64,000 bases of DNA from Methylococcales bacterium. Its GTDB lineage: Bacteria > Pseudomonadota > Gammaproteobacteria > Methylococcales > Methylomonadaceae. Below the pieces are notes generated by a model. That model saw nothing but the letters and a program-made list of their open reading frames with translations, did not search any database and was not told the DNA's origin. How positions within the stretch are numbered: position 1 is the stretch's first letter; the number at the start of each line of letters is the position of its first letter. A program made the translations under genes and the position numbers. The stretch covers positions 1 to 64,000 of the forward strand of contig JAQTUW010000004.1 in NCBI GenBank assembly GCA_028707085.1, given 5' to 3'. Of the stretch, positions 18,652 through 44,686 are shown in pieces.

Positions 18652-19491
18652 ATGATCGACATAGGCAAATTCAATACCTTGAGCATTTCCAGAATACGCG
18701 ACAACGAGATCTGTCTCGATGGTGGCGACAGCGGGGAAATCGCCCTGATAGACAAGGATATTCCTGCCGGGGCGCAGCCTGGCGAACAGTTAAATGTATT
18801 CGTTTATATCGATGGCCATAATCAATTGCAGGCTACTCTGCAAACCCCAAAGGCGCTGGTGGATGAAGTGGCCTGGCTGCGCGTGGTGTCGCTGAGTCAT
18901 GCCGGAGCATTTCTGGACTGGGGTTTGCCCAAGGATTTGTTGGTTCCATTCAGTGAGCAGAAAACCCGGATGGTGGAGGGCCAATTTTATCTGGTGCGGC
19001 TGTTTCTGGATGAAAGCAATCGTATTGCGGCATCGACTCTACTCGATGATTTTGTTCAGGATCAGGCTTTTTATTTCAAGGAAGGGCAGGCGGTGGATCT
19101 GATCATCGCCGATGAGACCGAGCTGGGCGTCAAGGCGATCATTGATCATCAGTACTGGGGCATACTGTATAAAAACGAAATTTTTCAGCCCATCAGGAAA
19201 GGTCAGAAACTCACCGGTTACATCAAGAAAATCCGTGAAGACAACAAAATTGATTTGACCCTGAATCAGGGAAAATATGGCCAGAAAGTCGATACGACCG
19301 CCGAAAAAGTCCTGGCCGTTCTGAAAAGCCGGGGCGGGTATATCGCGCTGACCGATAAAAGTCCGCCGCAGATGATTTACGATACTTTTGGGGTAAGCAA
19401 GAAAGTATTCAAGCAGGCAATTGGCGGTCTGTATAAACAGCGCAGTATCGTGATTGAAGATAACGGCATTCGCCTTTCCGGGCCGGCTTGA
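18652..19491 (+). CDS. CvfB-like S1 RNA-binding protein
   Basis: 279 residues when started at ATG 18652 (MIDIGKFNTLSISRI), the typical beginning of the CvfB/YitL family; upstream in-frame codons look non-coding. It consists of tandem S1-like OB folds (about 1-60, 70-130, 150-215) and a C-terminal winged-helix segment (KVLAVLKSRGGYIALTDKSPPQMIYDTFGVSKKVFKQAIGGLYKQ). The family is linked to RNA binding and virulence regulation in Gram-positives; its role in Proteobacteria is unclear. Cytoplasmic. No partner genes adjacent. Confidence 0.85.
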   Translation: MIDIGKFNTLSISRIRDNEICLDGGDSGEIALIDKDIPAGAQPGEQLNVFVYIDGHNQLQATLQTPKALVDEVAWLRVVSLSHAGAFLDWGLPKDLLVPFSEQKTRMVEGQFYLVRLFLDESNRIAASTLLDDFVQDQAFYFKEGQAVDLIIADETELGVKAIIDHQYWGILYKNEIFQPIRKGQKLTGYIKKIREDNKIDLTLNQGKYGQKVDTTAEKVLAVLKSRGGYIALTDKSPPQMIYDTFGVSKKVFKQAIGGLYKQRSIVIEDNGIRLSGPA

Positions 19492-19602
19492 TAGTCGGCC
19501 AACATCGCACCATCGCTTAACTGTTGCCGGCGCCGCTGTGGTTTAAGGGTGGCCGGCCTATCCCCGGCAGGTTTTCTGCCTATGTATCCCTACCATTTTT
19601 GC

Positions 19603-19635
19603 ATACCTTAATTGCAGAACCTGCAAATAAGGTAT
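19603..19635. promoter_or_regulatory. Long dyad, copy 1 (putative activator site)
   Basis: Imperfect 33-base palindrome centred on 19619. The left arm is ATACCTTAATTGCAGA; the right arm differs at two positions. The same motif occurs as a perfect palindrome at 23872-23904. In both places it lies about 73 bases upstream of a -24/-12 type promoter element, which is typical of an enhancer site for a sigma-54 activator. Confidence 0.65.
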
Positions 19636-19690
19636 TGTCCAGCAGGCATCAAAATAACATAAGCTATTGATGTTATATTGATTTTTAATG

Positions 19691-19706
19691 TGGCATAACT
19701 GATGCA
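19691..19706 (+). promoter_or_regulatory. Putative sigma-54 promoter, copy 1
   Basis: TGGCATAACTGATGCA: GG and GC are separated by exactly 10 bases, the defining spacing of -24/-12 promoters. It shares TTTTAATGTGGCA with copy 2. The next gene downstream is the 1222-residue repeat protein; about 460 bases, including a MITE, lie between. Confidence 0.55.
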
Positions 19707-19772
19707 TTATGCGATTGAAGGCAGGTTGTGTACCTCGTGGGCGCATACACCTCACTGGACAGGCTCCTGATG

Positions 19773-19946
19773 GTTCGCCAATTTTGTTTTGACGAATAGG
19801 CTAATCTGCTGCCGGGGTATTTTGACAGAGGTTTAGGCCGCATGGATGCCGACTCAAGCCTACATGGATGTGTTCACTGCGTCCTCTGGCGGAATACCCC
19901 GGCAGCAGATGGGTAGCTATTATCCATCATTATACATTTGGCGGAC
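19773..19946. mobile_element. MITE-2, copy a
   Basis: 174 bases closely matching 44467-44640. Short terminal inverted repeats (GTTCGCCAAT at one end, ATTTGGCGGAC at the other) and a strong internal dyad, CTGCTGCCGGGGTATT with AATACCCCGGCAGCAG. No coding sequence. It is immediately preceded by GGACAGGCTCCT (19757-19768), the tip of a MITE-1 element, as in copy b. It lies between the putative sigma-54 promoter and the repeat-protein gene. Confidence 0.8.
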
Positions 19947-20165
19947 AACTAGACGTTTTCCTCCCTGTTTTGCTTGCTTCCATCTGTGTGCCGAATAAAT
20001 ATGATTTGTTTTGTACCGTTATCAGGATGTCCCCAGGTCGTCATACGGATATTAGGGGGCGTTTGAAAATGGAGAACAAAAAATAACATCATCTTTCAGT
20101 GCCGACGGCTTTTTTGAGCAATTCGGCCAGACAAATCAATCCATTGTATAAAAAAGAGGGCTAAA

Positions 20166-23100
20166 ATGAAACTGAGTGTCAGCGGGTTTTTAAGTAATCC
20201 ATCCAAACCGGCGGCAATTCTGGATTCAGCCGCAAATATGCTGTCCAGTCTTGGGCAACTGGAAGGCTATGCCGCCGATATCAGGTCAATTTCCCTGACG
20301 GATAAGAAACCGGTTCTAAGCCTGCCGGCCAGCGAGATTGTCAGTTACGCTTCGGTACTGGGCAAGGTTGCCAGCAATTATAGTATCGTCCTGTCCGATT
20401 CAACGCCGCCGACACTGGCGCTCAGTTGGGCGCAATACACTGCCGATTCGAAAGTGCTGGGGAAAATCGCGGCGTCTTCCCAATATAATTTGTCCCTTGC
20501 CGGCGTGCCGGCCGGCAAGGTGGCAAGTCTGGGGCACAATGGGCATGTCGTGGCGATGACGGTGACGGATACCGCCCAGCATGTCGCCGGTAATCTTGGC
20601 GCCATCGGCAAGTACGATGCCAGCATCACCTCGGTTTCCATTGTCGATACCGGCGCACATATCGCCAACAACCTGACAGCTCTGGAACACGGGTTCGGCA
20701 AACTGAATCAATTAAAAATTACCCTGACTGACAGCTCTGTACCGGTGCTAAAGCTGAGCGCCGCGCAGCTTTCGGGCGATGCCAGCGTATTAAACGCCAT
20801 TACCAGTCCGTTTACGATACAGATTGTCGATTCGGCGCAAAATGTCACGAAATATCTTGCGGCGCTGGAAACCTATTCCAGCCAGATTTCCAGCATCAGC
20901 CTGACAGGCTCTACCCCCACGCTGAATCTGAGCGCCGCCCAATACAACGCCAACAGCGATGCGCTGGCTGAAATCAGCAGCCGTTATCATCTCAATGTCA
21001 GCGGCTCGGCCGGCATAGCCGCCACGCAAATCCCGGCCTTCACCATGCGGGCGCCGCCAGGGACAAGCGGGGCGGTGACGTTGACGGCGTATGTGTCGAT
21101 AAACGGCGGCGCGCCGGTCAGTCTGGGTGCTTTAACTGCAACGGGTTCGTCCGCAGTGCAATTTCAGCCGCAGGGCTTGAATTCGCAAGCCGGCGATAGC
21201 TGGAGTTTTAGCGTTACAGCCACCAACGCCCAGGGTAATACCGTGGCCGGACAGATCGAAATGACGCCCGGCTATTTTTCAGGCCAGCCCGTCAACAATG
21301 GCTATGCCGCTACCGTGAGCATCACCTTTTTAACTGTTTCGGCAACTGGCGGCGTGACCGGTTTACCCAAGGCGTATTCGGCAAAGGATACTCATTATTA
21401 TGTGCTGGAGGGTACGTCCGGCGCGACGGTATCCATGGCCGAGCTGGCGGCGGCGGATAAAGGCAATAAGGTATTGCACCAATACATATTGGCCGGCAAG
21501 GTGACGGTGGCGGGCGTGACCGGCGCGGTTCAGCCGGAGGGCCTCAATGTCATGAGCCCTTCCGTACAAGTCAATGGCCACACACTGATTCCGGATTTGG
21601 GCAAGCAACTGGATGCCGGGCAATATGCGATCATGGCGAACATATCTAATCCTTCCTCATCAACCACTGTCCAGATGTGGTTGTCGGACGGCGTAAATAC
21701 CTACCAGCTTGGTTCGCAGACCCTGAGTTCAAGCCAGCCGTACGCAGGTTTCAGTGGCGCGGATTTGAATACTAATGGTGTCGTGCTGTCGGCCGGCAGC
21801 GGCGCCACAGGTACGGCCTATAAACTGTTTTTTACCGACGCCAGCGGTAATGGCGTGCCCGGAAACGCCATCAGCGGCTTGCAGTTGGCGGTTTCCTCTC
21901 CGACTGGCGGATCGCCGGCGCAATGGATAACAGCGCCATCCACGGCGAGTGGCGGCATTAATCTGGAAGTCGGAACAGTCGCCCAAGTACTTGCCTATGC
22001 GGCGGCCCATCCAGCAGGAACGACCTGGTATTTTATTGAAGACAGTATTAACAATATCCATGCCGCATCGGCTGCGTTAAACAGCCTGGTCAATGCCCAG
22101 CAGGTAGTGGGCGCCTATATCAGCGGCGGCATAGCACCTGCCGGTAACGGCTATATCATGAGTCAGTGGCCCGCTGCGATTCAAATTGGCGGCAGCTCGC
22201 AATTCGTGAGGGTTTTCGGCGCCAATACCGGCAACTGGCAAGCCCATACCACTCTGGCCGTACAAACCACGGACAGCGGCGTCAGTCACACACTGCAGTT
22301 ATATGATAACGGTACGGCGCTAGGCAGTGCGCAAACCCTGACTTCCGACGGTTCTTCAACATTGGGCGTCGCCTTGCCGGCAGGTATGACGCTGAGTCCG
22401 GGTACTCATAATCTGACGGCGACCCTTGACGGCGCAGCGGTCAATCTCGGTGTGGTCGCTCCCGGTGGCGGTCTGCCAGTGAGCTATGCCGCCAGCCTGA
22501 ATGTCTGGGTCGGTACGGTTAGTCAACTGCCGACTAGTTTGTCAGCCGTTGCCGCCAACACGCTTTATGTCATACAGGACACTGCCGCAAATCTGGCTGC
22601 GCTGGGTTCGTCATCTGTGGAAAGCGGTGCGGCGCTGGCGCTTGCCGCCAGCGGTAATCTGGTCTTTGAAGTCAGTGGCGGACAACTGACATCCTATCAG
22701 CAGCAACTGATAGAAGAAAACAATCTTAATATTCTGAACCTGTCAACGCTGAGCGTTCAGGATACGCTGCTGGGACTGGAGCATGTGCCTGTTCTGGCTG
22801 GTGGAGATAGCCTGCAAATCAATGATGATATGGCCCGCCTGCTGTATTCTGCGACAGCGATTGAGAGTGCTTATCCGACCTCAGGGTCGGCAGGACAGCA
22901 CAATCCGCTCGCTATTGCTGTTTCCGGTGGGCATGTCACGCTGACGGATACGCTGGCGGCCCTGACCGATACAGCCAATCAGACGGCGCTGCAAACGCAA
23001 TATGGGCAAGCGTCTATCGGCAGGGTTGTGGTTGCCGATAGCGTTGCGGATTATACATCCGCCAATTTAACTGCCGATTCCCTGGTATTGCAGACTTTTG

Positions 23101-23834
23101 CCGGTAGCCTGGGGGCGGCCCTGGGCTTTGAGGTCAAAGATAGTCTGGCCAATATTCAGACCGCATTAGCGCAGAACGGCAGCCAATTTCTCAGCACCTA
23201 TACTGCTGGAATCGATGTAATCGATAGTGTCAGGAACCTGGAAACGGCTTATGCGAACGGCTCACTGTCGGCTTTGGAGACGGCGGCTGCAACTGTGCCG
23301 GTCAAGCTGGCAGTCGAGGATAGTCTGGCCAATCTGCAGTCATTATTTAGCACTGCCGGCGAAACAGGGCTGATCTCGCAATTACAGAATGTGACAGTGG
23401 TGGACACGGCGCAAAATATTCTAAACGCATATCAGAACAGCGGTAGTGGCCTGAATCCGCTTGCCGCGGCGAGTAATATCATCATTCAGGATAGTTATGC
23501 CAATGTGTTGGCGGCATCGCAAAGTAATAGCGGTTTGCTGGGCAGCGTGTCCGAAATCGATCTGACCAGTGGAGCGACTGTCGGCCAGGGGGCATTGCAG
23601 GTCAATATTGGTAATACCGGCGGCATTGGCAACGGCATGGGCGCTTTACCGGAAGTCATGCTGCCGTTCATGAGCGGTACCCTGTCGGCAACAGAAGCCA
23701 GTGATGGGAATGGCGGCACGCTGGTAACCATTACCGATACGCAGAGTCACTCGGTGTCTATCGATTTGATAGGCGTGGTCGATAATGCGGCGGGTGGCTC
23801 AAGTTACACGCAGGGCGGCTGGTATCATGTCTGA
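20166..23834 (+). CDS. Large cysteine-free repeat protein, probably secreted
   Basis: 1222 residues, no cysteine, rich in Ala, Ser, Thr, Gly, Asn. The first 290 residues are degenerate repeats of about 55-60 residues with the pattern VDTAxxVAxNLxAL...ISSISLTDxxPxLxLSAAQ. Similar repeats (VEDSLANLQ, VVDTAQNIL, IQDSYANVL) return at about 900-1150. The middle (about 295-800) looks like Ig-type beta domains. The C-terminus is a Gly/Thr-rich segment ending SSYTQGGWYHV. There is no Sec signal peptide, so type I secretion with a C-terminal signal is plausible; the VxDTAxN repeats are common in large RTX-type and surface proteins, though no GGxGxDxUx nonapeptides are seen. RBS GAGG lies 7 bases before the ATG. 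Function unknown. Confidence 0.8.
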   Translation: MKLSVSGFLSNPSKPAAILDSAANMLSSLGQLEGYAADIRSISLTDKKPVLSLPASEIVSYASVLGKVASNYSIVLSDSTPPTLALSWAQYTADSKVLGKIAASSQYNLSLAGVPAGKVASLGHNGHVVAMTVTDTAQHVAGNLGAIGKYDASITSVSIVDTGAHIANNLTALEHGFGKLNQLKITLTDSSVPVLKLSAAQLSGDASVLNAITSPFTIQIVDSAQNVTKYLAALETYSSQISSISLTGSTPTLNLSAAQYNANSDALAEISSRYHLNVSGSAGIAATQIPAFTMRAPPGTSGAVTLTAYVSINGGAPVSLGALTATGSSAVQFQPQGLNSQAGDSWSFSVTATNAQGNTVAGQIEMTPGYFSGQPVNNGYAATVSITFLTVSATGGVTGLPKAYSAKDTHYYVLEGTSGATVSMAELAAADKGNKVLHQYILAGKVTVAGVTGAVQPEGLNVMSPSVQVNGHTLIPDLGKQLDAGQYAIMANISNPSSSTTVQMWLSDGVNTYQLGSQTLSSSQPYAGFSGADLNTNGVVLSAGSGATGTAYKLFFTDASGNGVPGNAISGLQLAVSSPTGGSPAQWITAPSTASGGINLEVGTVAQVLAYAAAHPAGTTWYFIEDSINNIHAASAALNSLVNAQQVVGAYISGGIAPAGNGYIMSQWPAAIQIGGSSQFVRVFGANTGNWQAHTTLAVQTTDSGVSHTLQLYDNGTALGSAQTLTSDGSSTLGVALPAGMTLSPGTHNLTATLDGAAVNLGVVAPGGGLPVSYAASLNVWVGTVSQLPTSLSAVAANTLYVIQDTAANLAALGSSSVESGAALALAASGNLVFEVSGGQLTSYQQQLIEENNLNILNLSTLSVQDTLLGLEHVPVLAGGDSLQINDDMARLLYSATAIESAYPTSGSAGQHNPLAIAVSGGHVTLTDTLAALTDTANQTALQTQYGQASIGRVVVADSVADYTSANLTADSLVLQTFAGSLGAALGFEVKDSLANIQTALAQNGSQFLSTYTAGIDVIDSVRNLETAYANGSLSALETAAATVPVKLAVEDSLANLQSLFSTAGETGLISQLQNVTVVDTAQNILNAYQNSGSGLNPLAAASNIIIQDSYANVLAASQSNSGLLGSVSEIDLTSGATVGQGALQVNIGNTGGIGNGMGALPEVMLPFMSGTLSATEASDGNGGTLVTITDTQSHSVSIDLIGVVDNAAGGSSYTQGGWYHV

Positions 23835-23871
23835 TGTCGGGGTGGCGCTCGGCCCCCCCTACCATTTGTGC

Positions 23872-23904
23872 ATACCTTAATTGCAGAATCTGCAATTAAG
23901 GTAT
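23872..23904. promoter_or_regulatory. Perfect 33-base dyad, copy 2 (putative activator site)
   Basis: ATACCTTAATTGCAGA, a single central A (23888), then the exact reverse complement: 16-bp arms with no mismatch. It is centred 72 bases before the GG of a -24 element (23960), versus 73 bases in copy 1. It could also act as a terminator hairpin for the gene ending at 23834, but no T-run follows and the copy at 19603 is not near an equivalent gene end. Confidence 0.7.
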
Positions 23905-23958
23905 TGTCCATTATCTGCCGCCAGGCTTTTACTCATTGATATATAAAGAATTTTAATG

Positions 23959-23974
23959 TGGCACGATTACTGTA
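23959..23974 (+). promoter_or_regulatory. Putative sigma-54 promoter, copy 2
   Basis: TGGCACGATTACTGTA: the -24 half TGGCACG matches consensus fully; the -12 half has GT instead of GC, with the correct 10-base spacing. It would start transcription about 100 bases before the ATG at 24075. Confidence 0.5.
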
Positions 23975-24074
23975 TTAAGTAAATAGGCGCTTAATAACAA
24001 ACTGTATTTTCAGTCCGCTGCTTCCGGCAGGTAATAGCAGGACTTTTAAAGTGTAAGTTTATGGAAAAAACAAT

Positions 24075-25391
24075 ATGATTTATAGTCGGCTTATCAAATC
24101 CGCGTATCGTCAAAGACCGATATTTCGTATCGGAATAATAAATAAAATGATGAACGCTTGTCAGAGGCAATCCAAATTCGACAAATTGATTGGCAGCATG
24201 TTTCTGCTAATTGCCGTCATTTTGACGGTGACTTTCGAACCAGCGGATTTTATGGTCGACGCCTATGCGGGGGCCTCGTCTACCAATATCGTGGTCGCCA
24301 CCCCGAATATGAGTCTGTCGACCCCAACCGGTTCGCCAGGCATTGTCACCAATGGCAATCAGAAGACGATTCAGGCCGTGGCCGGTCAAGCGGTCACCAT
24401 CAATATCAATACTTCCGATCCGAATGGCTATAACGGTTATGTTTTTGCGGGGGCCACGCAAAACAATCAGTTTTATTATGCGGCGGATTCCTATGTTTAT
24501 TCGCAAAATGGCGGTTTGTATCTGGGTACGCCCAGCACTGCATTATTACCGGCTTCCAGTACGGTGACAAACCATTACTCAAGTGTTGGCAATTATTCCC
24601 AGTCAACATTTGCCTGGACGCCAACCCAGGCGGATACCGGCACATCGGTTACAGTGACTTTTATCGCCTCCAATTATTATCAGCCAACAACGCCCAAGAG
24701 CTTTACCCAAAGTGTCACCATCAATACGGTCGAGACCACGACACCCAGTTTTTCCATGAACGCCACCCAAACCCTGCTTTTGGGCGTGGAAGCTAAAATT
24801 CCGGTTACCGTTATCCCGGACACCGACAATGATAATGTGCTGATCACCGCAAACAGTCTGCCAACCGGCGCTGTGCTGGGCACGGCGGCAAAAAACGCCA
24901 GCGGACAATGGGTTGCGGTGCTGACCTGGACGCCAGCCACGGATCAGATCGGCAGTACAACTATTACTTTCAGCGCTCAGGATGTCCAGGAAACCAATGT
25001 AGTGACCAATCCAGTCACTTTTATTGTGCAGAATAACGCCAGTCCGGTGTTCGCAAGCAGTATGCAGGCGCAGGTGACCGCAGCGCAAAATATTCCCTTG
25101 AACTATAAGGTCGTGGTAATTCCCGATGCGCAGACCAGCGATGTACTGATTACGGCCACCGGTTTGCCGGCGGGGGCGGCATTAAGCAGTCCTTCGCTGG
25201 TCAATAATCATCTTGTCGCCACCATGACCTGGAAACCGGATGCGTCTCAGATCGGTACTGATTTTCCGGTGACATTTACGGCCGAAGATAATGTGGTCGG
25301 TGCGGTACCCGTGATGTTTACAACCACTTTCAAGGCTGTGCCGCATTATTCGGTGATAAACCGTTCACTTTTTAACCGGTTGCGGCACTGA
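24075..25391 (+). CDS. Exported Ig-like domain protein A (paralogue of 27595-28854)
   Basis: 438 residues. A basic N-terminus of about 40 residues precedes a hydrophobic stretch (SMFLLIAVILTVTF) and then EPADFMVDAYAGASS, which could be a late signal-peptide cut after AYA or a membrane anchor. The rest is beta-rich with at least three repeats of the putative Ig type, each built as xxVLITAxxLPxGAxL...W..VLTWxP...IG..TITFxAxD. The C-terminal end PHYSVINRSLF is shared with the paralogue. GGA lies 9 bases before ATG 24075; internal ATGs at 24147-24150 are alternatives. The mature part has no cysteine. First gene of the five-gene cluster. Function unknown. Confidence 0.75.
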   Translation: MIYSRLIKSAYRQRPIFRIGIINKMMNACQRQSKFDKLIGSMFLLIAVILTVTFEPADFMVDAYAGASSTNIVVATPNMSLSTPTGSPGIVTNGNQKTIQAVAGQAVTININTSDPNGYNGYVFAGATQNNQFYYAADSYVYSQNGGLYLGTPSTALLPASSTVTNHYSSVGNYSQSTFAWTPTQADTGTSVTVTFIASNYYQPTTPKSFTQSVTINTVETTTPSFSMNATQTLLLGVEAKIPVTVIPDTDNDNVLITANSLPTGAVLGTAAKNASGQWVAVLTWTPATDQIGSTTITFSAQDVQETNVVTNPVTFIVQNNASPVFASSMQAQVTAAQNIPLNYKVVVIPDAQTSDVLITATGLPAGAALSSPSLVNNHLVATMTWKPDASQIGTDFPVTFTAEDNVVGAVPVMFTTTFKAVPHYSVINRSLFNRLRH

Positions 25392-25458
25392 CAGGCGGAG
25401 CCGCATGGAACGGGAAAAATGAGTGGCTGAAAATCAAATAACTTTCCTTAACTCGCAT

Positions 25459-25980
25459 ATGAAAAAAATATTGAACAATCAAAACCGTTTGCATATAGGC
25501 CCTTATATTGTCCTGCTTTTCACCATCCTCTGTCCGGCTGCTCATGCCATTGAAGCCGGCGCGGATGTGCCGGATTGCCAGCTTAAACATCTGTCCGGCG
25601 ACAAATTATTGCAACTATCCATGCCCGGCAAGGTGGTGTATGTGGATTTCTGGGCCTCCTGGTGCGGTCCTTGTGTGCAGTCCATGCCGTTCATGAATGA
25701 AATTCAGGAACAATACCGGTCGCAGGGCCTGAATGTGGTCGCCATCAATCTGGATGAAAACCGGGAAGACGCCGAGGCTTTTTTAAAAGAACATCCCGCC
25801 AACATCACCATCGCCCAAAATACTGATGGGCAATGTCCGGATCGGTTTGGGGTTCATGCCATGCCGTCATCTTATCTTGTCGATAAGCATGGAAAAATTA
25901 GGTTTGTTAATTTAGGTTTTCACGCTTCCGAAACAGACGAAGTTCACCAGAAAATTCAAAGCCTGCTCAGGGAAAACTAG
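25459..25980 (+). CDS. TlpA-family thioredoxin-like protein, exported
   Basis: About 173 residues from ATG 25459, which begins a clear signal peptide (KK, hydrophobic core YIVLLFTILCP, cleavage after AHA). An in-frame GTG at 25423 is possible but would bury the signal. The thioredoxin fold shows VVYVDFWASWCGPC with the WCGPC redox pair, and the cis-Pro loop AMPSSYLVDKHG. An additional cysteine (PDCQ) precedes the fold and one (GQCPDRFG) precedes the cis-Pro. Predicted periplasmic disulfide reductant. It directly precedes the cysteine-containing DUF4266 lipoprotein, a possible substrate. Confidence 0.9.
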   Translation: MKKILNNQNRLHIGPYIVLLFTILCPAAHAIEAGADVPDCQLKHLSGDKLLQLSMPGKVVYVDFWASWCGPCVQSMPFMNEIQEQYRSQGLNVVAINLDENREDAEAFLKEHPANITIAQNTDGQCPDRFGVHAMPSSYLVDKHGKIRFVNLGFHASETDEVHQKIQSLLREN

Positions 25981-25991
25981 GATTGGAAACA

Positions 25992-26222
25992 ATGAGGTAT
26001 CCTAAAATTGCGCGATATGGCGTTTTGAGCTGTATGCTGCTGTGTCTGGCCAATGGCTGTACAAACAAGATTAATGCCTGGGAACGGGGTAATTTGGCAA
26101 AACCGCAGATGGCTTTGGAGCCTGAGCCATTGGATGGAGCCCTGATGAAACATATGTATAGTTCAAAGGAAGCGGCTTCCGGTGGCTACGGGGTAGGCGG
26201 AGGCGGCTGTGGCTGTAATTAA
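25992..26222 (+). CDS. DUF4266 small lipoprotein
   Basis: 76 residues. ATG 25992 follows AGGA at 9 bases. Signal peptide with a lipobox-like LANGC, so mature residue 1 would be the lipidated cysteine. The mature chain has the DUF4266 core AWERGNLAKPQM and ends in a glycine-rich tail, GGYGVGGGGCGCN, carrying two further cysteines. The tail's codons also provide a strong Shine-Dalgarno (GGAGG, 26199-26203) for the next gene, which starts inside this one. DUF4266 and DUF3570 genes are, as far as I recall, usually neighbours. The Cys-rich tail next to a TlpA protein suggests redox or metal chemistry, not proven. Confidence 0.85.
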   Translation: MRYPKIARYGVLSCMLLCLANGCTNKINAWERGNLAKPQMALEPEPLDGALMKHMYSSKEAASGGYGVGGGGCGCN

Positions 26223-27465
26223 GGATAAATCCGGTCAAGCGGCATGGTCGGTATTGACCGGCGCCGCGCTTGCTCTTCCAGGGATGATGTCTGTAGCGCA
26301 TGCCGACGTCGCGCCGCTCAATTATAGTCTGGACACCAATTTCAGCCGTTATGCCGAAAGTGCGGGACGCATGAAGGTTGATATTTATCAGGCGGCGGCC
26401 ATTTTACCGTTGACTGAAAGGCTCAGCCTCAAATTCAATGGCGTCAAGGATGTGGTGACCGGCGCGTCACCCGTCGGTCCGGCCGCTGCGGGTACCCGCG
26501 GTTGTAAAGGCCCGCATCTGGGGGGATTGATGCAGTGTATGTCGGGCGCCTCCATTAGCGACGTGCGCGATTCGGTGGATGTCAACGCCACTTATTATAT
26601 GGACAATGATACGGTGGATGTCGATGCCGGCCGTTCCAGTGAAAACGATTACGCCTCCGATTTTTTTAGTGTCAACAATCGCCTGGAAATCAACGACAAA
26701 CTGACGACGATTACCACGGGTTACGCCTATGCGGCTGATCATGTCTGGGAAATCGTTCCCATAGACGGCGTAAAGGTCAGAGCAGCGAATGTCGGCGGCG
26801 CCAAGGAAACCCATCAGGGCATACTCGGACTTACCCAGATTCTGGATAAGGATTCCCTGCTACAGGCCAATCTCACCTATAGTTATAACGGCGGTTATCT
26901 TTCGGATCCCTATAAATATGTGTATGCGCCGTGGACAAACTGTACCGGTTTTAACTGTCCGGCCATTCCCGCCTCGGCTTATCCGGGATTTATACGCGAC
27001 ACCCGACCCGGGAGCCGCAACCAGATAGGTATACTGCTGGGTTATGTGCGCAACTTTGCAGCACTCAACTCGGCGGCGTTACATGCCGATTACCGTTTTT
27101 ATGCCGATACCTGGGGTGTCGATTCTCATACTTTCGAATTCAGCTGGATACAACCGGTCGTGGATGACTGGCAATTGACGCCGCGTTTGCGCTATTACAC
27201 CCAGAATTCGGCGGATTTCTATAATGTCATGTTCAACAGCCCCAGCACCACCGGCTATTACTCCTCGGATTACAGGCTGGCCGGATTCGGGGCGATCGGT
27301 GGTGGATTACATCTTAGCAAGGCTTTTTTCAACAAGCTCACCGTTTCCGGCGGCATGGATTTTTATAAGCGGGAATATGGATACGGCATCTCCGGCGGGA
27401 CAGGCACGGCTTTGGATAATTTTACATTCTCCATGTTTTCGGTTAGCCTGAACCTGAAGTTTTAG
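26209..27465 (+). CDS. DUF3570 outer-membrane beta-barrel protein
   Basis: 418 residues starting at GTG 26209, with GGAGG 5 bases upstream and a 14-base overlap with the DUF4266 gene. Signal peptide to about residue 32 (SVAHA). The body alternates hydrophobic and polar residues with many aromatic girdles and ends VSLNLKF, the terminal Phe of an outer-membrane barrel. DUF3570 features are RYAESAGRMKVDIYQ near the start, SGASISDVRD, and TYYMDNDTVDVDAGRSSENDY. It contains cysteine pairs (TRGCKG / LMQCM and NCTGFNC) that could form disulfides in loops. Probably the outer-membrane partner of the lipoprotein. Confidence 0.9.
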   Translation: MAVIKDKSGQAAWSVLTGAALALPGMMSVAHADVAPLNYSLDTNFSRYAESAGRMKVDIYQAAAILPLTERLSLKFNGVKDVVTGASPVGPAAAGTRGCKGPHLGGLMQCMSGASISDVRDSVDVNATYYMDNDTVDVDAGRSSENDYASDFFSVNNRLEINDKLTTITTGYAYAADHVWEIVPIDGVKVRAANVGGAKETHQGILGLTQILDKDSLLQANLTYSYNGGYLSDPYKYVYAPWTNCTGFNCPAIPASAYPGFIRDTRPGSRNQIGILLGYVRNFAALNSAALHADYRFYADTWGVDSHTFEFSWIQPVVDDWQLTPRLRYYTQNSADFYNVMFNSPSTTGYYSSDYRLAGFGAIGGGLHLSKAFFNKLTVSGGMDFYKREYGYGISGGTGTALDNFTFSMFSVSLNLKF

Positions 27466-27594
27466 TTTCCTGGGACTGCGGCTGTCGGCTCCGTGACAAC
27501 TAACAAGTGATGTCGGGCGGGATTGCCCGGCATTGAACATTATGCGGTGCAACACTGCTATCGCCTCTATCCGCCTTATTGCGTTAAATTCATT

Positions 27595-28854
27595 ATGTCA
27601 GATTTGATCAAGATCGCTGCAAGCAGGGACGCGCGAAGAAAGCCTGGATTTGGCAAATTGACCGGTAGGCTGGTTCTGCTGGCAATCATTATCATGGCGA
27701 CAAGTTTTGAGCCTGCCGAATTAATGGTCGATGCCTATGCCGGGGCTTCATCGACCACAGTGGTGGTCGCCGTGCCCAATATCAGTCTGTCAACGCCGGC
27801 TGGTTCGCCGCCGATTATCACCAATGGCGGCAGGAAGGAAATTCAGGCGGTGGTCGGACAGCCGCTGACAGTCGATATTAATGCTTCCGATCCGAACGGC
27901 TATAACGGTTTTGTTTTTACCGGGGTTACGCAAAACAATAAGTTTTATTATTCGGCAAATACCTATCTGGTTGCACAAAATGGCCAGATGCATCTCGACA
28001 ACATCAAAACGCCGCTGTTGCCGTCAGGCAGCACCCTGACCAACCAGTACAAGACCGGTGGTCATTTTACGCATTCAATATTTACCTGGACGCCTACTGC
28101 GGCGGATAACAATACTTCGGTTACCGTGAGCGTTATTGCCGGTAATTATTATTATCCGGCGACGCCGGTAAGCCGTACCATGAATTTTACCATCAACACG
28201 GTTGATGCAACCACGCCCAGTTTTGCCATGAATGCAGAGCAAACGCTGGTGATGGGGTTTGAAGCCAAAATTCCGGTTACCGTGATTCCCGATACCGATA
28301 ATGATAGCGTGCTGATTTCGGCAAGCAACCTGCCCAATGGAGCGGTACTGGGCCCGGCGGCGAAAAATGCCGGTGGGCAATGGGTGGCGGTGCTGACCTG
28401 GACGCCAAGCGCCGCCCAGATTGGCAGTTCAACGATTACTTTTGAAGCACAGGATGCGCAGGAAAGCACAGTGGTGAGCAGTCAGGTGGTGTTTATCGTG
28501 CAGAATGGCGCCAGCCCCGCGTTTTCGTCCAGTATGCCGGCAATGATGGAGGCGGCGCAAAATGTCGCCCTGACGTATGAGATTATCGTGATCCCGGATG
28601 CGCAAACCAGCGATGTGTTGCTTACAGCCACAGGTTTGCCGCCGGGCGCGGTTTTAAGCAAGCCGGTACTGAAAAATGGCCAGCTTGTCGCCAGCATGAC
28701 CTGGCAGCCGGACGCCTCGCAGATCGGCAGCAATTTTTCGGTCACATTTACTGCCGAGGACAATGTGGCTGGTGCTGTGCCTGTTATGTTTACAACTACA
28801 TTTACAGCCGTACCGCATTATTCGGTGATCAACCGTTCGCTGTTTAGACGCTAA
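27595..28854 (+). CDS. Exported Ig-like domain protein B (paralogue of 24075-25391)
   Basis: 419 residues from ATG 27595; a TTG at 27523 would extend it by 24 residues of less protein-like sequence. It matches protein A along its whole length: hydrophobic segment GRLVLLAIIIMATS, then EPAELMVDAYAGASST, the block ASDPNGYNGFVFTGVTQNN, three Ig-like repeats and the end PHYSVINRSLFRR. Divergence is spread evenly, so the duplication is not recent. It closes the cluster 129 bases after the DUF3570 gene. Two paralogues flanking a redox/barrel module suggest a heterodimer or two alternative surface partners. Confidence 0.75.
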   Translation: MSDLIKIAASRDARRKPGFGKLTGRLVLLAIIIMATSFEPAELMVDAYAGASSTTVVVAVPNISLSTPAGSPPIITNGGRKEIQAVVGQPLTVDINASDPNGYNGFVFTGVTQNNKFYYSANTYLVAQNGQMHLDNIKTPLLPSGSTLTNQYKTGGHFTHSIFTWTPTAADNNTSVTVSVIAGNYYYPATPVSRTMNFTINTVDATTPSFAMNAEQTLVMGFEAKIPVTVIPDTDNDSVLISASNLPNGAVLGPAAKNAGGQWVAVLTWTPSAAQIGSSTITFEAQDAQESTVVSSQVVFIVQNGASPAFSSSMPAMMEAAQNVALTYEIIVIPDAQTSDVLLTATGLPPGAVLSKPVLKNGQLVASMTWQPDASQIGSNFSVTFTAEDNVAGAVPVMFTTTFTAVPHYSVINRSLFRR

Positions 28855-28904
28855 AACTCGGCGGCTTTTTAACCGGTTAGGGAAGACCGGAAAAGTGCTG
28901 GCGA

Positions 28905-28943
28905 CCATGACGGGTTTCGGCCGTGGGCCTTTACCCGTCATGG
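28905..28943. terminator. Hairpin between convergent genes
   Basis: CCATGACGGG (28905-28914) pairs with CCCGTCATGG (28934-28943). The loop holds an inner GGCC/GGCC stem. It separates protein B (plus) from rne (minus, ending 28952) and may stop transcripts from both sides, though no T-run is present. Confidence 0.5.
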
Positions 28944-28951
28944 GTGTTCAA

Positions 28952-31120
28952 TCAATCTTCAGTTTTGGCAGCGCTGTGGGTATCGTTGTGCTCATGGCGC
29001 ACCGGCTCATGGCTTTGCGGTTCGTGTTTTTGAGCACGTTCTGCAAAGTCGCTGGCGTAAGGCCGTGGCGGACGGGGCGTTTCATGGCTGGAAACTGATG
29101 TCTCCGCTGCTCTGTCCATATCCCGTGGACTGTCGTCGCCGGCATTAACGGACTCCGTTTTCTTTTCAGCACCGTTGCGTGGCGAGCGCCGGCGGTTGCG
29201 GTTGCGGCGCGAGTTACGTTCCTGCGGGGCGCCGGTTTTTTTAGGCTGATTGTCCGCTATCGCTTCGTTGTCCGTAGTCTGTTTGGCGGCTTCCTGCGGA
29301 ATGGCGTTTTCCGTAACAGCGCTGCCGGGATTCCGCCTATTCTGATTGCGTCTGCCGTTGCGCCCTTGCGGGCTGCGGTCTTTATGGCGATGGTTTCGTT
29401 CCAGTTGTGGCTTGTCTTCGCTTTTGGGCTGTTTTTCCTCAACTTCAGCGGCTATGGCGTGTCCGATCAACCGTTGCCAGAAACGTTGTAGCAGACTGGT
29501 CGAGGTTTTTCTGTTTTGCCCCGGGGCCGGCGCATCCGGCAAAAATTCCTTGACTGCGGCTTTTTCAATTTTTGCGCCGCTCTGCTTGGCAAATTCAGGC
29601 ACGGTAATATCATCTTCCTTGATATGCAGATGGCTGGCCTTGTCTTCCATGCCTTCCAGCGATTTGATGCGCTCGATGTCGTAAGACGGGGTTTCAAGAT
29701 GTTTGCTGGGCAATACCACGATGTTAACCTGCAAACGTGCTTCCAGATCCTGAATTGCAGCCCGCTTTTCATTTAGCAGGAAAGTGGCGCAGTCTATGGG
29801 CAGATGGGCAATAACCCGCTCTGTGCCTTTTTTCATAGCTTCTTCTTCAATCAGACGCAACACCGCCAAGGTGACCGATTCGACATTACGGATGGAGCCC
29901 TGACCCTTACAGCGCGGACAGGTCAACTGGGTCGAGTCGCCAAGTGAGGGACGCAGGCGCTGCCTGGACATTTCCATCAGCCCGAAACGGGAAATACGGC
30001 CGGTCTGGATACGAGCCCGATCGATTTTCAGGGCATCGCGTAACCGATTTTCCACTTCCCGCTGGTTTTTGTTGGACATCATGTCGATAAAATCAATGAC
30101 AAACAGCCCGCCCAGATCACGCAGCCGTAATTGCCGGGCAATTTCGTCCGCCGCTTCCAGATTGGTATTGAGCGCCGTTTCCTCGATATCGCTACCTTTG
30201 GTGGCGCGCGCCGAGTTAATATCCACCGAGGTCAGCGCTTCGGTATGATCGATGACAATGGAGCCGCCGGAGGGCAGGGTGACTTCGCGCTTATAGGCCA
30301 TTTCGATCTGAGTTTCGATCTGATAGCGGCTGAACAGCGGTACACTGTCCTGATAGAGCTTGGCCTTGTGCAGATTATGCGGCATGACCTGCTTCAGAAA
30401 ATTATGCACCAGTTTGAAAGCGCCTTCCTGATCGATCAGAATTTCGTCAATATCACCACGCAAATGGTCGCGAAGGGCGCGAATGATGACGTTGCTTTCC
30501 TGAAAAATCAGAAATGGGGCAATCTGTTCGGAACTGGAACGGTCTATCGCTTCCCAAAGTTGCAGCAGGTAATTTAGATCCCATTGTAATTCCTCGACAT
30601 TTTTGTCGGAACCGGCGGTACGGATAATCAGGCCCATGCTGTCCGGAATTTCCAGCGCGGACATGGTTTCACGCAGTTCGCTGCGATTGTCGCCTTCAAT
30701 GCGTCTGGAGATGCCGCCGGCCTTGGGGTTATTGGGCATCAGCACCAGATAGGTGCCCGCCAGACTGATATAGGTGGTGAGCGCTGCGCCTTTGTTGCCG
30801 CGCTCTTCCTTTTCGATCTGAACAACGATTTCCTGGCCTTCGCGGATATTGTTTTTAGAGGATTTACCCTCTTCGCCATCGGCGCTGCGGTATTGGGGGA
30901 TAATTTCCTTGAAGGGTAAAAATCCGTGTTTTTCAGCGCCATAATTAACGAAAGCGGCTTCAAGACTGGGTTCTACCCGGGTGATGATGCCTTTATAGAT
31001 ATTGGATTTCTTTTGTTCTTTGGAGGGAACTTCGATGTCAAAATCATAGAGTTTCTGACCATCTACCAATGCCACACGCAGTTCTTCAGGCTGCGTGGCG
31101 TTGATAAGCATTCTTTTCAT
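28952..31120 (-). CDS. rne: Ribonuclease E
   Basis: Endoribonuclease that starts mRNA decay and processes rRNA and tRNA. 722 residues: S1 domain (about 35-125), 5' sensor, DNase I-like catalytic part with the metal-binding aspartates in LTSVDINSA and FVIDFIDMM, and the Zn-link CPRCKGQG. The C-terminal 200 residues are short and arginine/asparagine-rich ([16 protein letters not shown]), so the long degradosome scaffold of E. coli RNase E (1061 residues) is reduced to RNA-binding arginine patches. Divergent from rluC as in many gammaproteobacteria. Confidence 0.96.
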
Positions 31121-33143: not shown

Positions 33144-34121
33144 GTGGAAAACAGTAAGGATTATTTACGATCGATTGAGAACAAATCCGAGTGGGAACGA
33201 GGGGTTCTGGAAAAGCTGGCGTTTGCCTCCATTAACGAACAGAAGATTGCCAGACGCTGGGGCATTTTTTTCAAGCTGCTGACTTTTGCCTATCTGACTG
33301 TGGTTCTGGTTATCGCCAGTTTTCCGCAACTCATGGAAACGATAGGTAGCGGCATCAAACAGCATGTAGCCATTGTCGACATCCATGGGGTGATCGCGCA
33401 AGGCGAAGGCGTCAGCGCCAGCACCATCATGGAGGGCTTGCAGAACGCAGCCAAGGACAGTAACACCAAGGCTATTATTTTGAACATTAATTCACCCGGC
33501 GGTAGCCCGGTGCAGTCGGCTTATATTTATGACGAAATCAGGCGTCTGAAAAAACTGCACCCGGATATGCCGATTTACGCTGTTGTTGGCGATATGTGCG
33601 CTTCAGGCGGCTATTATGTCGCCGCCGCCGCCGACAAGATATTTGTCAGCCCGGCCAGCGTTATCGGTTCCATTGGCGTCATCATGAACGGTTTCGGTTT
33701 TACGGGTACGATGGAGAAAGCCGGCATCGACCGGCGCTTGCTGACAGCCGGTGATCATAAGGCCCTGCTTGATCCTTTTTCGCCGGTAAAACCACAGGAA
33801 ACCGCCTACATGCAAACCCTGCTGGATCAGGTGCATCTGCAATTCATCAACGCAGTGCGCGCAGGTCGCGGCGACCGCTTGAACGAAGCAGGTACGCCTG
33901 AAATATTTTCCGGGCTGGTATGGACCGGAGAACAAGGCGTGAAAATCGGTCTGGCCGATGGTTTTGGCAGTGTCGAATCCGTTGCCCGCGATCAACTGGG
34001 TACTGAGGAAACCGTGAATTTTACCCCGCAAGAGCATCTGATTGACCGTCTGGCCGGAAAGCTTGGCGCATCGTTTGCCCATAGTCTCGGCAGTTTGTCG
34101 AATGGGGTGGCGGTACGCTGA
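33144..34121 (+). CDS. sppA: Signal peptide peptidase SppA, S49 family
   Basis: Membrane-anchored serine protease that digests cleaved signal peptides. 325 residues, the short single-domain form. One membrane helix at about residues 42-62 (FKLLTFAYLTVVLVIASF), then the protease domain: INSPGGS oxyanion strand, catalytic Ser in GDMCASGGYYVAAAAD, and catalytic Lys probably in TAGDHKALLDPF. Active site faces the periplasm. It follows the HAD gene by 12 bases. Confidence 0.93.
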   Translation: MENSKDYLRSIENKSEWERGVLEKLAFASINEQKIARRWGIFFKLLTFAYLTVVLVIASFPQLMETIGSGIKQHVAIVDIHGVIAQGEGVSASTIMEGLQNAAKDSNTKAIILNINSPGGSPVQSAYIYDEIRRLKKLHPDMPIYAVVGDMCASGGYYVAAAADKIFVSPASVIGSIGVIMNGFGFTGTMEKAGIDRRLLTAGDHKALLDPFSPVKPQETAYMQTLLDQVHLQFINAVRAGRGDRLNEAGTPEIFSGLVWTGEQGVKIGLADGFGSVESVARDQLGTEETVNFTPQEHLIDRLAGKLGASFAHSLGSLSNGVAVR

Positions 34122-34193: not shown

Positions 34194-35114
34194 ATGAACA
34201 AACCAAAACCATCTACAGCGCTTAGGCTATTCAAGTTTCGGTTTAAAGCCATGGGTACGCTGTGCGAACTGCAATGCTATGTGGCCAGCGAAAACGCGGG
34301 CAAAAGGGTCGCCGATCTGATGCAGGCCGATGTGTTGCGGCTTGAGCAGCGTTATTCCCGCTATCGGGAAGATAGTCTGCTGGCCGGTATCAACCGGGCG
34401 GCTTTTAAGGGCGAAGAAATCCGGGTGGATTCGGAAACCGGGCAATTGCTGGACTATGCGCAAACCTGCTATCAGCAAAGCGACGGTCTGTTTGACATTA
34501 CCTCCGGTGCGTTGCGCCGCGCCTGGCGTTTTAAGGAAGGCGAGTTGCCGGATCAGAATTTGATAGACGAGCTGTTGCAGGGCGTCGGCTGGCACAAGCT
34601 GGAGTGGCGGCCGCCATTGCTCAAGTTTGCCGCGCCGGGCATGGAAATCGATTTCGGCGGCGTGGTCAAGGAATATGCCGCCGACCGGGCGGCGGTAATC
34701 TGCCAGAATGCCGGGGTATGGCATGGCTTTGTCAATTTGGGCGGAGACATTCGGGTTATTGGCCCGCATCCAGATGGTAGCCCGTGGATCATTGGTATTC
34801 AGCATCCTCGTCTGGAAACCGGCGAAACTTTTGGTAATCTGGAACTGTTTCAGGGCGGGATGGCGACCAGCGGCGATTATGAACGTTGCATCATGGTGGG
34901 CGATGAGCGCTACAGCCATATTCTCAATCCGAAAACCGGCTGGCCGGTGAAATATATGGCTACGATTAGCGTGGCCGCCAATTTTTGCCTGATCGCCGGC
35001 AGTGCTTCGACTATCGGCATGCTCAAGGAACAGGATGGCCCGGAATGGCTGGCCGAGCTGGGCATGCCGCATATCTGGATGGATGCGTCCGGGCGGATAG
35101 GCGGTATGGAATAA
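34194..35114 (+). CDS. apbE: FAD:protein FMN transferase (ApbE family)
   Basis: Transfers FMN from FAD to a Thr/Ser of a target flavoprotein. 306 residues. Typical signatures: FKAMGTLCELQCY at the start, YSRYREDSLLAGINR, DITSGALRRAWRF, EIDFGGVVKEYAADRA, NLGGDIRVIG, and MATSGDYER...YSHILNPKTG. No signal peptide or lipobox is visible, so it may act in the cytoplasm or be misstarted. No obvious flavinylation substrate (FMN-binding domain protein) is adjacent. The DUF4266-DUF3570 cluster, a type often accompanied by ApbE, lies 6.7 kb upstream. Confidence 0.9.
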   Translation: MNKPKPSTALRLFKFRFKAMGTLCELQCYVASENAGKRVADLMQADVLRLEQRYSRYREDSLLAGINRAAFKGEEIRVDSETGQLLDYAQTCYQQSDGLFDITSGALRRAWRFKEGELPDQNLIDELLQGVGWHKLEWRPPLLKFAAPGMEIDFGGVVKEYAADRAAVICQNAGVWHGFVNLGGDIRVIGPHPDGSPWIIGIQHPRLETGETFGNLELFQGGMATSGDYERCIMVGDERYSHILNPKTGWPVKYMATISVAANFCLIAGSASTIGMLKEQDGPEWLAELGMPHIWMDASGRIGGME

Positions 35115-43800: not shown

Positions 43801-44301
43801 ATGAACGAACGAAGTTATGTAGGTATTGACAGAACGGACAATAATGTCTGGATAGTGGTTTTATGGAACCAGGGGAAATTTATTTTTTCCAGACCGTTCA
43901 AAAATACCGTTGCCGAACTTGAAGCTCTGGTGCGTTTTATCACCGGGCGTTGCGAAAGACCAAAAATCTGTCTTAATCCCACCAATCCCGCTACAGTAAA
44001 ATTGGTTAGCATGGTTGCCGACATCCCGGGTGTCGAAGTCGTGCTGATGTCCAATGCCGGACTCCGATTGCATCAGGACTGGCTGCCTAAAAATCCGGAT
44101 AGCGACACGCCGCCTTTTCAACACGGATCACATAAAGCTTATCTGCTGGCATGTTGTGCAGAACGAATCATTTGATATTACAATTCATCGAGAAGGGGGG
44201 CAAGCCATCTTTCCGATAGCGAAGAAAGAATTCTTAACGAGCTGAGCAGATTGCATCAACGTATGGATGAACTGAAAACACAATTGTCAGCGGATCGCTA
44301 G
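43801..44301 (+). pseudogene. RNase H-fold-like gene interrupted by in-frame TGA
   Basis: ATG 43801 opens MNERSYVGIDRTDNNVWIVV, which resembles the N-terminus of IS110-type DEDD transposases or other RNase H-fold proteins (YVGIDxxxxxxxVxLxxxGKF, then FKNTVAELEALVRFI). The frame meets TGA at 44173-44175 after CAERII. It then continues open with convincing coiled-coil sequence (SDSEERILNELSRLHQRMDELK) to TAG at 44299-44301. The full product would be 166 codons long. A nonsense mutation is the simplest reading; read-through is an alternative. The TAG stop is provided by the CTAG tip of the adjoining MITE. No second transposase domain follows. Confidence 0.55.
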
Positions 44302-44464
44302 GAGCCTGTCCGAGAATAGAAGCCGTAGCGAGGGAAAGTCATTTTGAGTTGGATTTTTTAGGCATTTGAGGCGGAATAGTTGCGCTATTTAACGAAAATG
44401 CGCAGGAAATCCGGCCAAAAGAGCTTTTCCGCAGTAGGTTTTCTATTCTCGGACAGGCTCCTAG
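44298..44464. mobile_element. MITE-1, complete copy
   Basis: 167 bases bounded by perfect 24-bp terminal inverted repeats: CTAGGAGCCTGTCCGAGAAT plus AGAA, and its exact complement at 44441-44464. No ORF inside. The terminal CTAG may be the target site, as with IS5-type elements, though I cannot name the parent IS. Related single ends occur at 15394-15429 and 19757-19768. Confidence 0.88.
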
Positions 44465-44466
44465 TA

Positions 44467-44640
44467 GTCCGCCAATTTTGTTTTGACGAATAGGCTAATC
44501 TGCTGTCGGGGTATTTTGACAGAGATTTAGGAGGTATGGATACCGACTAAAGCCTACATGGATGTATTCACGGCATCCTCTGGCGGAATACCCCGGCAGC
44601 AGATGGGTAGCTCTTATTTGTTATTATAACATTGGCGAAC
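44467..44640. mobile_element. MITE-2, copy b
   Basis: 174 bases nearly identical to 19773-19946, with termini GTCCGCCAAT and ATTGGCGAAC and an internal CTGCTGTCGGGGTATT / AATACCCCGGCAGCAG dyad. It abuts MITE-1 with two bases between, the same arrangement as at 19757-19946. Confidence 0.85.
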
Positions 44641-44686
44641 GACTTGCAGGTGCGCGAGGCTGGCTAAGGGTAATTTGACGGGGTTT

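Follow-up and report, generated by a model that had tools for sequence, protein, structure and literature searches.

The stretch of DNA analyzed here (the window) comprises 64,000 nucleotides from a Methylococcales bacterium (GenBank assembly GCA_028707085.1, contig JAQTUW010000004.1, positions 1 to 64,000). Within it, a gene for a large cysteine-free repeat protein is followed by a five-gene operon encoding an immunoglobulin-like (Ig) protein (IgA), a TlpA-type thioredoxin, a DUF4266 protein, a DUF3570 protein and a second Ig-like protein (IgB). Near-identical palindromes lie upstream of both units, each followed by a sigma54-type promoter element, and the same combination occurs at three more places in the source genome: before cutA-dsbD, before a Cyc2-like gene and beside a kinase/activator gene pair. 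We consider it probable that a two-component sigma54 system governs a regulon for flavin- and haem-based electron transfer in the envelope, with the six window genes among its members. The functional unit extends past these six genes, to an apbE gene further down the window and to dsbD on another contig.

A first-pass annotation of the window had listed the six genes, all of which are confirmed, and had proposed one control signal shared by the two units. That signal is the palindrome, present before both with its sigma54 element, and shared control of the two units is supported. The sigma54 promoter, the regulator and the wider regulon go beyond that annotation. Our evidence (genes, motifs, sites, promoter geometry, kinase/activator linkage and conservation) is read from sequence. 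Comparisons cover the genomes of 80 relatives plus the source genome (G000, 3.0 Mb, in which the window lies on contig C28), 81 in total; genomes, contigs and loci carry G, C and L numbers.

A palindrome spaced to a sigma54 element

The palindrome is 37 bp long, with the consensus GCATACC-N4-TTGCAG-N3-CTGCAA-N4-GGTATGC, variants allowed. With up to three mismatches, its 27-bp core does not occur in 100 shuffles of the window. From the palindrome centre to the sigma54-type element is 72 bp at site 1 and 71 bp at site 2. The element at 19691 is of the GG-N10-GC (-24/-12) type, and the one at 23959 has GT at -12. The sigma54 pattern alone is not enriched in the window (42 occurrences versus 48.8 in shuffles); the non-random feature is its spacing to the palindrome.

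We examined this geometry at 11 sites: five in the source genome, five in a Crenothrix genome (G045) and one in G039, with the facing strand picked from the neighbouring genes. A twelfth site, on C22 of the source genome, has a promoter-like element at +74 and was excluded from the counts because its facing gene is unclear. Within 180 bp on the gene-facing strand, the best sigma54-like element falls at +70 to +74 at 10 of the 11 sites, compared with none on the opposite strand (binomial probability 3e-15, taking 5/180 per site). Across 901 kb of loci in four sets (not including L151 and L164, which duplicate L140 and L142), there are 22 pairs of loose core and strong sigma54 element at 70–74 bp. 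The other 195 distances together hold 66 pairs, or 0.34 per distance. Elements of that strength number 29 per 64 kb over both strands. A resampling comparison set 21 observed pairs against a mean of 0.55 in 20 resamples, but over 20 loci selected for holding sites, so the 901-kb count is the one to rely on. A strict palindrome count in 19 relatives' loci found no pair at 68–75 bp, one at 62 and one at 76; since it also missed the site in L144 (the same DNA as L167, counted in the 901-kb set), this criterion is insensitive and was replaced.

Searching the whole source genome with the 27-bp core returns one further place, C38:62946, upstream of cutA-dsbD and again with the element at +72. A shorter core combined with the element gives three pairs without mismatch at spacing 72, newly adding C14:113295, and none in a reversed control; two further pairs with 2–3 mismatches are probably chance. 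An extended half-site adds C8:85692 and the weaker C22 place, and also matches in G045 and, with two mismatches, in G039. At up to three mismatches the half-site has some match in 13 of 81 genomes and its reversed control in five. Sequence alone therefore accepts only sites with 0–1 mismatch, and weaker ones need the promoter geometry. Such close sites occur in two of the 81 genomes (G000 and G045), both of which have the kinase described below.

The candidate regulator and its predicted targets

On contig C14 the order is kinase, sigma54 response regulator, porin-like protein, 150-residue protein, site and small secreted protein. The kinase scores over the cut-offs for HisKA and HATPase and under that for HAMP. 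The response regulator is nearest to AtoC, below that model's cut-off, and the porin-like protein falls just below the cut-off for BBP2. The 150-residue protein has no Pfam match and by eye looks like a small periplasmic binding protein. The sensor part of the kinase matches 15 of the 81 genomes, two of them weakly (G017 and G015); in G013 the kinase adjoins a Cyc2-like pair.

From named genomes we fetched 25 loci selected by the kinase, 20 of them from Methylococcales. A core and element paired at 70–74 bp are present in 11 of these 20 (L156–L164 were scored by another criterion than the remaining named loci). Three of the 11 also hold the DUF3570 operon: L154 (Candidatus Methylobacter oryzae), L158 (a Lake Pavin Methylobacter) and L167 (Methylomonas STC_4). 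Each brings together the site, monohaem proteins, TlpA, DUF4266, DUF3570, DsbD and the kinase, which in L167 is truncated at the contig end. DUF4266 of L154 and L158 was recognized by its tail and TlpA of L158 by WCxPC, that is, by motif and not by Pfam. In L155 (Candidatus Methylobacter titanis) the arrangement follows that of C14, with kinase, activator, porin, 150-residue protein, site and small protein, the last being 23% identical to its source-genome counterpart (E = 1e-4). These pairs, together with the site beside the C14 kinase, make the C14 activator the best candidate for the regulator, though the loci were kinase-selected.

A distant kinase-activator-porin module occurs in L168–L172, from Methylophilales and other Betaproteobacteria; the pair found in L172, outside Methylococcales, is probably chance. 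In four of these five loci the module adjoins an apparent TetR-RND efflux operon (by reading), and L170 ends at the kinase. The kinase of G032 adjoins a similar TetR-RND-like operon, also by reading. For Methylococcus capsulatus Texas (L142 7459–7881 and L164 11719–12141), the mechanical list of open reading frames (ORFs) shows only a 140-residue receiver-like ORF behind the kinase.

The candidate regulon of the source genome, as predicted from the sites, comprises the repeat protein, the Ig-TlpA-DUF4266-DUF3570-Ig operon, cutA-dsbD, the C8 Cyc2-like gene and the C14 small protein. The C38 site faces genes for CutA and DsbD. The C14 target is a 202-residue secreted-type protein adjoining the regulator genes. 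The C8 target is a 451-residue protein with a single CxxCH, preceded by a 105-residue ORF of uncertain value; behind it comes a 243-residue protein that also carries CxxCH. According to the available text of PMC8406198, AXPXFAR[Q/K][T/Y] marks Cyc2 cytochrome-porins. The C8 protein and three homologues have AXPXF[A/S]RQT before CxxCH; the Cyc2-type motif is exact in one of the four (G013), and the other three, the source-genome copy included, have S for A. The C8 protein thus resembles Cyc2 in its single CxxCH, its 451 residues and the upstream motif, and differs in the S for A; the protein is a predicted regulon partner from outside the window.

The Crenothrix sites precede genes of similar kind. 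One faces an ethylbenzene-dehydrogenase-like protein followed by TlpA, DUF4266, DUF3570, DsbD and a CxxCH protein. The targets on its contig C5 are two CxxCH proteins, and another target is a 729-residue protein with nine CxxCH and an MtrC/MtrF-like domain. A further site lies at a locus like that on C8, with the first gene appearing as two short ORFs.

The DUF3570 core, the Ig-like proteins and the repeat protein

The DUF3570/DUF4266/TlpA core is of a known kind. The first-pass annotation called it functionally uncharacterised, which does not agree with published work: the available text of Meheust et al. (2021; PMC8238504) reports that a Chlorobium DUF3570 protein is flavinylated by ApbE on two [S/T]GA[S/T] motifs. 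The same text proposes that clusters of ApbE, a thioredoxin-like protein, DUF4266 and DsbD take electrons from DsbD, calls the function uncertain, and counts 316 clusters without DsbD. The window retains the flavinylation motifs of the family (TGAS at residue 84, SGAS at 112) and has an ApbE, and its predicted regulon includes DsbD, so we regard the core as already partly characterised. What is new is the assignment of a regulator, the link with cytochromes and with repeat proteins, and the presence of Ig partners.

The window DUF3570 protein scores 302.7 bits against a Pfam cut-off of 25 (5e-90), and the DUF4266 protein, with its C-terminal CxC tail, scores 81.8 bits (7e-23). The thioredoxin is of the TlpA/ResA class (redoxin/TlpA-type by Pfam and NCBIfam), not the PF13899 class of PMC8238504. 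The two DUF genes overlap by 14 bases in the window, and they overlap in G022 too. DUF3570 is found in 55 and DUF4266 in 53 of the 81 genomes. ApbE lies 5.3 kb downstream of IgB, past four other genes. It is of the operon subfamily, sharing 56% identity with the ApbE from the DUF3570 operon of G001, 46–47% with three others and 27% with the second ApbE of the source genome. DsbD is not in the window operon, and cutA-dsbD on C38 bears the same site and promoter. Coordinates are given in Table 1.

Table 1. Features of the locus in window coordinates
Feature	Position	Strand	Remarks
Activator site 1 (putative)	19601..19637	+	37-bp palindrome, centre 19619
Sigma54-type -24/-12 element TGGCATAACTGATGCA	19691..19706	+	+72 from site 1 centre
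194-bp leader element of repeat gene	19757..19950	.	Holds 28-nt inverted repeat; copy 2 at 44451-44644
Repeat protein, 1222 residues, Cys-free, acidic	20166..23834	+	Signal peptide not evident by eye
Activator site 2 (putative)	23870..23906	+	Palindrome, centre 23888
Sigma54-type element TGGCACGATTACTGTA	23959..23974	+	+71 from site 2 centre; -12 = GT
IgA, Ig-like, N-terminal hydrophobic segment	24147..25391	+	Mechanical ORF start 24075
TlpA/ResA-like thioredoxin, WCGPC	25459..25980	+	Signal peptide by eye; mechanical ORF start 25423
DUF4266 protein, lipobox-like N-terminus, tail GGGGCGCN	25992..26222	+	3' end overlaps DUF3570 start
DUF3570 protein, two [S/T]GA[S/T] motifs	26209..27465	+	Motifs at residues 84-87, 112-115
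IgB, IgA paralogue	27595..28854	+	Mechanical ORF start 27523
ApbE, DUF3570-operon type	34194..35114	+	Type by identity to other ApbEs

The mechanical starts of IgA, TlpA and IgB are probably too early; the starts in Table 1 match the N-termini of relatives better. An Rfam scan of 19480–29000 returned a single match, at 17 bits against a gathering score of 40. Sigma70 promoters number 12 (9.9 in shuffles) and terminators 8 (10.1 in shuffles). A strong sigma54-like element without palindrome at 34064–34079, about 130 bp upstream of ApbE and within the 3' part of the gene before it, could be a chance match. The two copies of the 194-bp leader element are 88% identical, and the second sits behind a short IS110-type transposase ORF at 43801–44175 (Pfam 25.3 bits, cut-off 29). 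The source genome has two more DUF4266-DUF3570 pairs without site, on C20 (L045 6479–9455) and C60 (L046 7253–10204), their DUF3570 chains lying in open frames that span 920 and 983 residues. The two loci share similar secreted proteins, as if one had been copied from the other. On C20 (L045 9497–13122), short repetitive ORFs with CGAI- and RGNTLSLL-like repeats suggest that tandem DNA repeats lie between genes.

IgA and IgB are 67% identical. IgB scores 23.7 bits against the bacterial Ig model Big_9 (cut-off 23.6), and IgA has no Ig match over cut-off. The IgB structure model is of low confidence (predicted local distance difference test, pLDDT, 59.8); Foldseek matches it to Ig and cadherin chains at a template modelling (TM) score of about 0.2. 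Among the 80 relatives, five have Ig matches, strong in G022, G019 and G001, weaker and not beside DUF3570 in G072 and G069. The co-occurrence with DUF4266/DUF3570 that the first-pass annotation had suggested as a check holds at both intact loci: Ig genes head the TlpA-DUF4266-DUF3570 operon in G022 and G019. In G001 a contig break separates the Ig gene from the DUF4266-DUF3570-ApbE genes, so that the locus is not intact there. The symmetric arrangement, with one Ig gene on either side of the core, is not conserved, the order being Ig-Ig-core in G022 and Ig-core in G019. The pair in G022 is 58% identical, and identity across genomes is 41–45%. With each pair closer within its genome than across genomes, the duplications look independent. 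A wider search of named genomes returned no Ig relative: one alignment (A2) was too divergent, and the other (A3) gave 106 candidate stretches, of which tblastn showed none to be a relative. In G001 (L026 1408–3764) the Ig gene is preceded by genes for a spermidine-synthase-domain protein and a protein starting MHMHMHM, whose Met/His richness suggests metal binding.

The repeat protein is confirmed as a cysteine-free chain of 1222 residues, with 71 acidic versus 29 basic residues. It has no Pfam or NCBIfam match, hence no RTX nonapeptide repeats by Pfam. Lacking both cysteine and an evident N-terminal signal peptide, it is compatible with type I export, predicted at most. A structure model of residues 1–420 has a pLDDT of 52.6 and was not interpreted. 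Co-occurrence of this protein with DUF3570 fails as a general rule: its only homologue among the 80 relatives is in G032, far from the DUF3570 genes there. We rejected conservation of this particular protein with the redox genes on that ground, and limit the claim to the class of protein.

For the class, the regulatory link proposed by the first-pass annotation appears to recur in relatives. In five of the 11 site-bearing named loci an RTX, RTX-related or DUF4214 protein lies behind the site (L154, L156, L158, L165 and L167). Those of L154 and L158 (RTX), L156 (DUF4214) and L167 (homologous to L154) are cysteine-free and without evident signal peptide; cysteines were not counted in the RTX protein of L165. 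Elsewhere the next gene encodes a small secreted protein (L155, L159 and L160) or a CxxCH protein (L161, and L158 at its first site), and for L148 and L150 it is beyond the DNA examined. A secreted repeat protein thus seems to be a frequent regulon member, though the protein itself gets replaced.

Proposed mechanism, alternatives and significance

We propose a two-component system encoded on C14, in which a histidine kinase of the membrane, its sensor dCache-like, would phosphorylate the sigma54 response regulator. The activator would bind the 37-bp palindrome, whose centre lies some 72 bp ahead of the -24 element, and jointly switch on the Ig operon, cutA-dsbD, the Cyc2-like cytochrome-porin and its neighbour, the repeat protein and the small secreted protein. 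Electrons would cross the inner membrane via DsbD and pass by thiol exchange to TlpA and on to the CxC tail of DUF4266. They would then reach flavin mononucleotide (FMN) on the two motifs of an outer-membrane DUF3570 protein, attached there by the window ApbE, and continue to the cell surface, where the Ig and repeat proteins may form the surface or matrix part. The DUF3570 motifs, the ApbE match and the site before DsbD are what suggest this route. We infer activator binding, flavinylation in this organism, the outer-membrane location, the direction of electron flow, the signal, and what the Ig and repeat proteins do. The envelope redox module of the first-pass annotation is supported, with electron export as its likeliest use. 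A fuller version, in which this Methylococcales regulon builds a thiol-flavin-haem surface conduit together with a cysteine-free repeat-protein matrix or scaffold through which methane-derived electrons exit at low oxygen, is put forward tentatively, as somewhat short of an even bet.

Several observations weigh against a regulon of this kind. The dCache_1 match of the C14 kinase is under cut-off. Nine of the 20 named Methylococcales kinase loci have no pair at the thresholds used, some of them being short contigs. The 27-bp core as first defined, with up to three mismatches, is in none of the 80 relatives. Of eight genomes with dsbD fetched, the source genome alone has the site upstream of it, and the loose pairs of L067 and L068 fall behind or within dsbD. 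G032 has both the kinase and the repeat-protein homologue, yet no close site. The G039 site, without promoter, is the sole miss of the geometry count, and this genome is also without the kinase. Neither an evident signal peptide nor an upstream palindrome accompanies the window ApbE. Finally, the Ig operons of G022 and G019 occur without the kinase and have no upstream sigma54-like element above 17 of 21.5, so the control is not general for Ig operons and is known in the window lineage only.

That the palindrome is a dispersed mobile or repetitive extragenic palindromic (REP)-type repeat lying near these genes by chance is very improbable. The first three copies do share identity beyond the core (CTACC-N-TTT-N-TGCATACC), and the repeat-gene leader does carry a separate repeated element, but the latter lies downstream of the promoter and excludes the palindrome. 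A dispersed repeat would also have to account for the 70–74 bp sigma54 spacing, the gene-facing direction, the concordant functions of the targets and the versions with other arms in other genera; the constant distance to the promoter and the bias in strand led us to reject it. A regulator other than the C14 activator is harder to dismiss, though we think it unlikely. Counting the one on C14, the source genome has 11 strong Sigma54_activat matches, and both PrsK and PrsR of the PEP-CTERM system are present over NCBIfam cut-offs, so that PrsR or another activator could bind the sites. The sites, however, accompany the C14-type kinase in 11 of the 20 named Methylococcales loci (kinase-selected and not independent) and lie beside it in the source genome, and those with 0–1 mismatch are confined to genomes that have it.

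The regulator may be as proposed while the module works in the handling of copper or iron, or in envelope thiol repair, and not in electron export; we hold this to be a substantial possibility, if a minority one. TlpA and DsbD also act in protein folding, and CutA is within the predicted regulon. In the available text of PMC8238504, a VIT1 iron transporter is present in 25 DUF3570 clusters, and iron assimilation is raised as a possible role. Methylococcus capsulatus responds to copper limitation by inducing multihaem cytochromes at its surface, for which sigma54 promoters are predicted (PMC4831470, available text), and this too speaks for such a reading. The predicted targets argue for electron transfer instead, being outer-membrane-type haem and flavin proteins such as the Cyc2-like porin and, in Crenothrix, the MtrC-like nine-haem protein. 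It is similarly doubtful, at about the level of another activator, that the repeat protein is an unrelated neighbour and unit 2 alone belongs to the redox system. The distance of its single homologue from the DUF3570 genes of G032 fits such a reading, but the repeat gene has its own copy of site and promoter, and cysteine-free RTX/DUF4214-type genes lie behind sites in L154, L156, L158 and L167, with RTX in L165.

Compared with the clusters of PMC8238504, as described in its available text, the proposed regulon shares DUF3570 with two motifs, CxC-tailed DUF4266, a thioredoxin-like protein, ApbE and DsbD as donor. It differs in that DsbD and ApbE lie outside the window operon and two Ig-like proteins inside it, and in that a predicted sigma54 regulon joins the operon to CxxCH proteins, cutA-dsbD and a repeat protein. 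The Methylobacter porin-cytochrome cluster (PMC13322032, available text) is likewise from Methylococcales, an outer-membrane conduit and scattered in distribution, but is of the MtrA/MtrB type and without flavin basis; the words sigma, thioredoxin and two-component were not found in the main text of that paper. RpoN control in Geobacter (PMC2725144, available text) similarly ties sigma54 to cytochromes of extracellular electron transfer, in another phylum and with no such activator site or DUF3570 module described there. The copper-repressed cytochromes of Methylococcus capsulatus (PMC4831470) are also surface multihaem proteins of a methanotroph with putative sigma54 promoters; the terms histidine kinase, DsbD and thioredoxin were not found in its main text. 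A report of this regulon was not found in the literature searched, which was not searched for the Ig proteins. In that literature DUF4266 and DUF3570 were each named by a single paper, one and the same.

According to the available text of PMC13322032, it is an open question how aerobic methanotrophs remain active when oxygen is absent and which route carries their electrons outward. The candidate regulator pair, the 37-bp site and the short list of predicted targets make the question of electron export testable. If the proposed regulon is real, the flavinylated DUF3570 family would gain a physiological setting beside cytochromes, along with Ig-like and repeat-protein partners.

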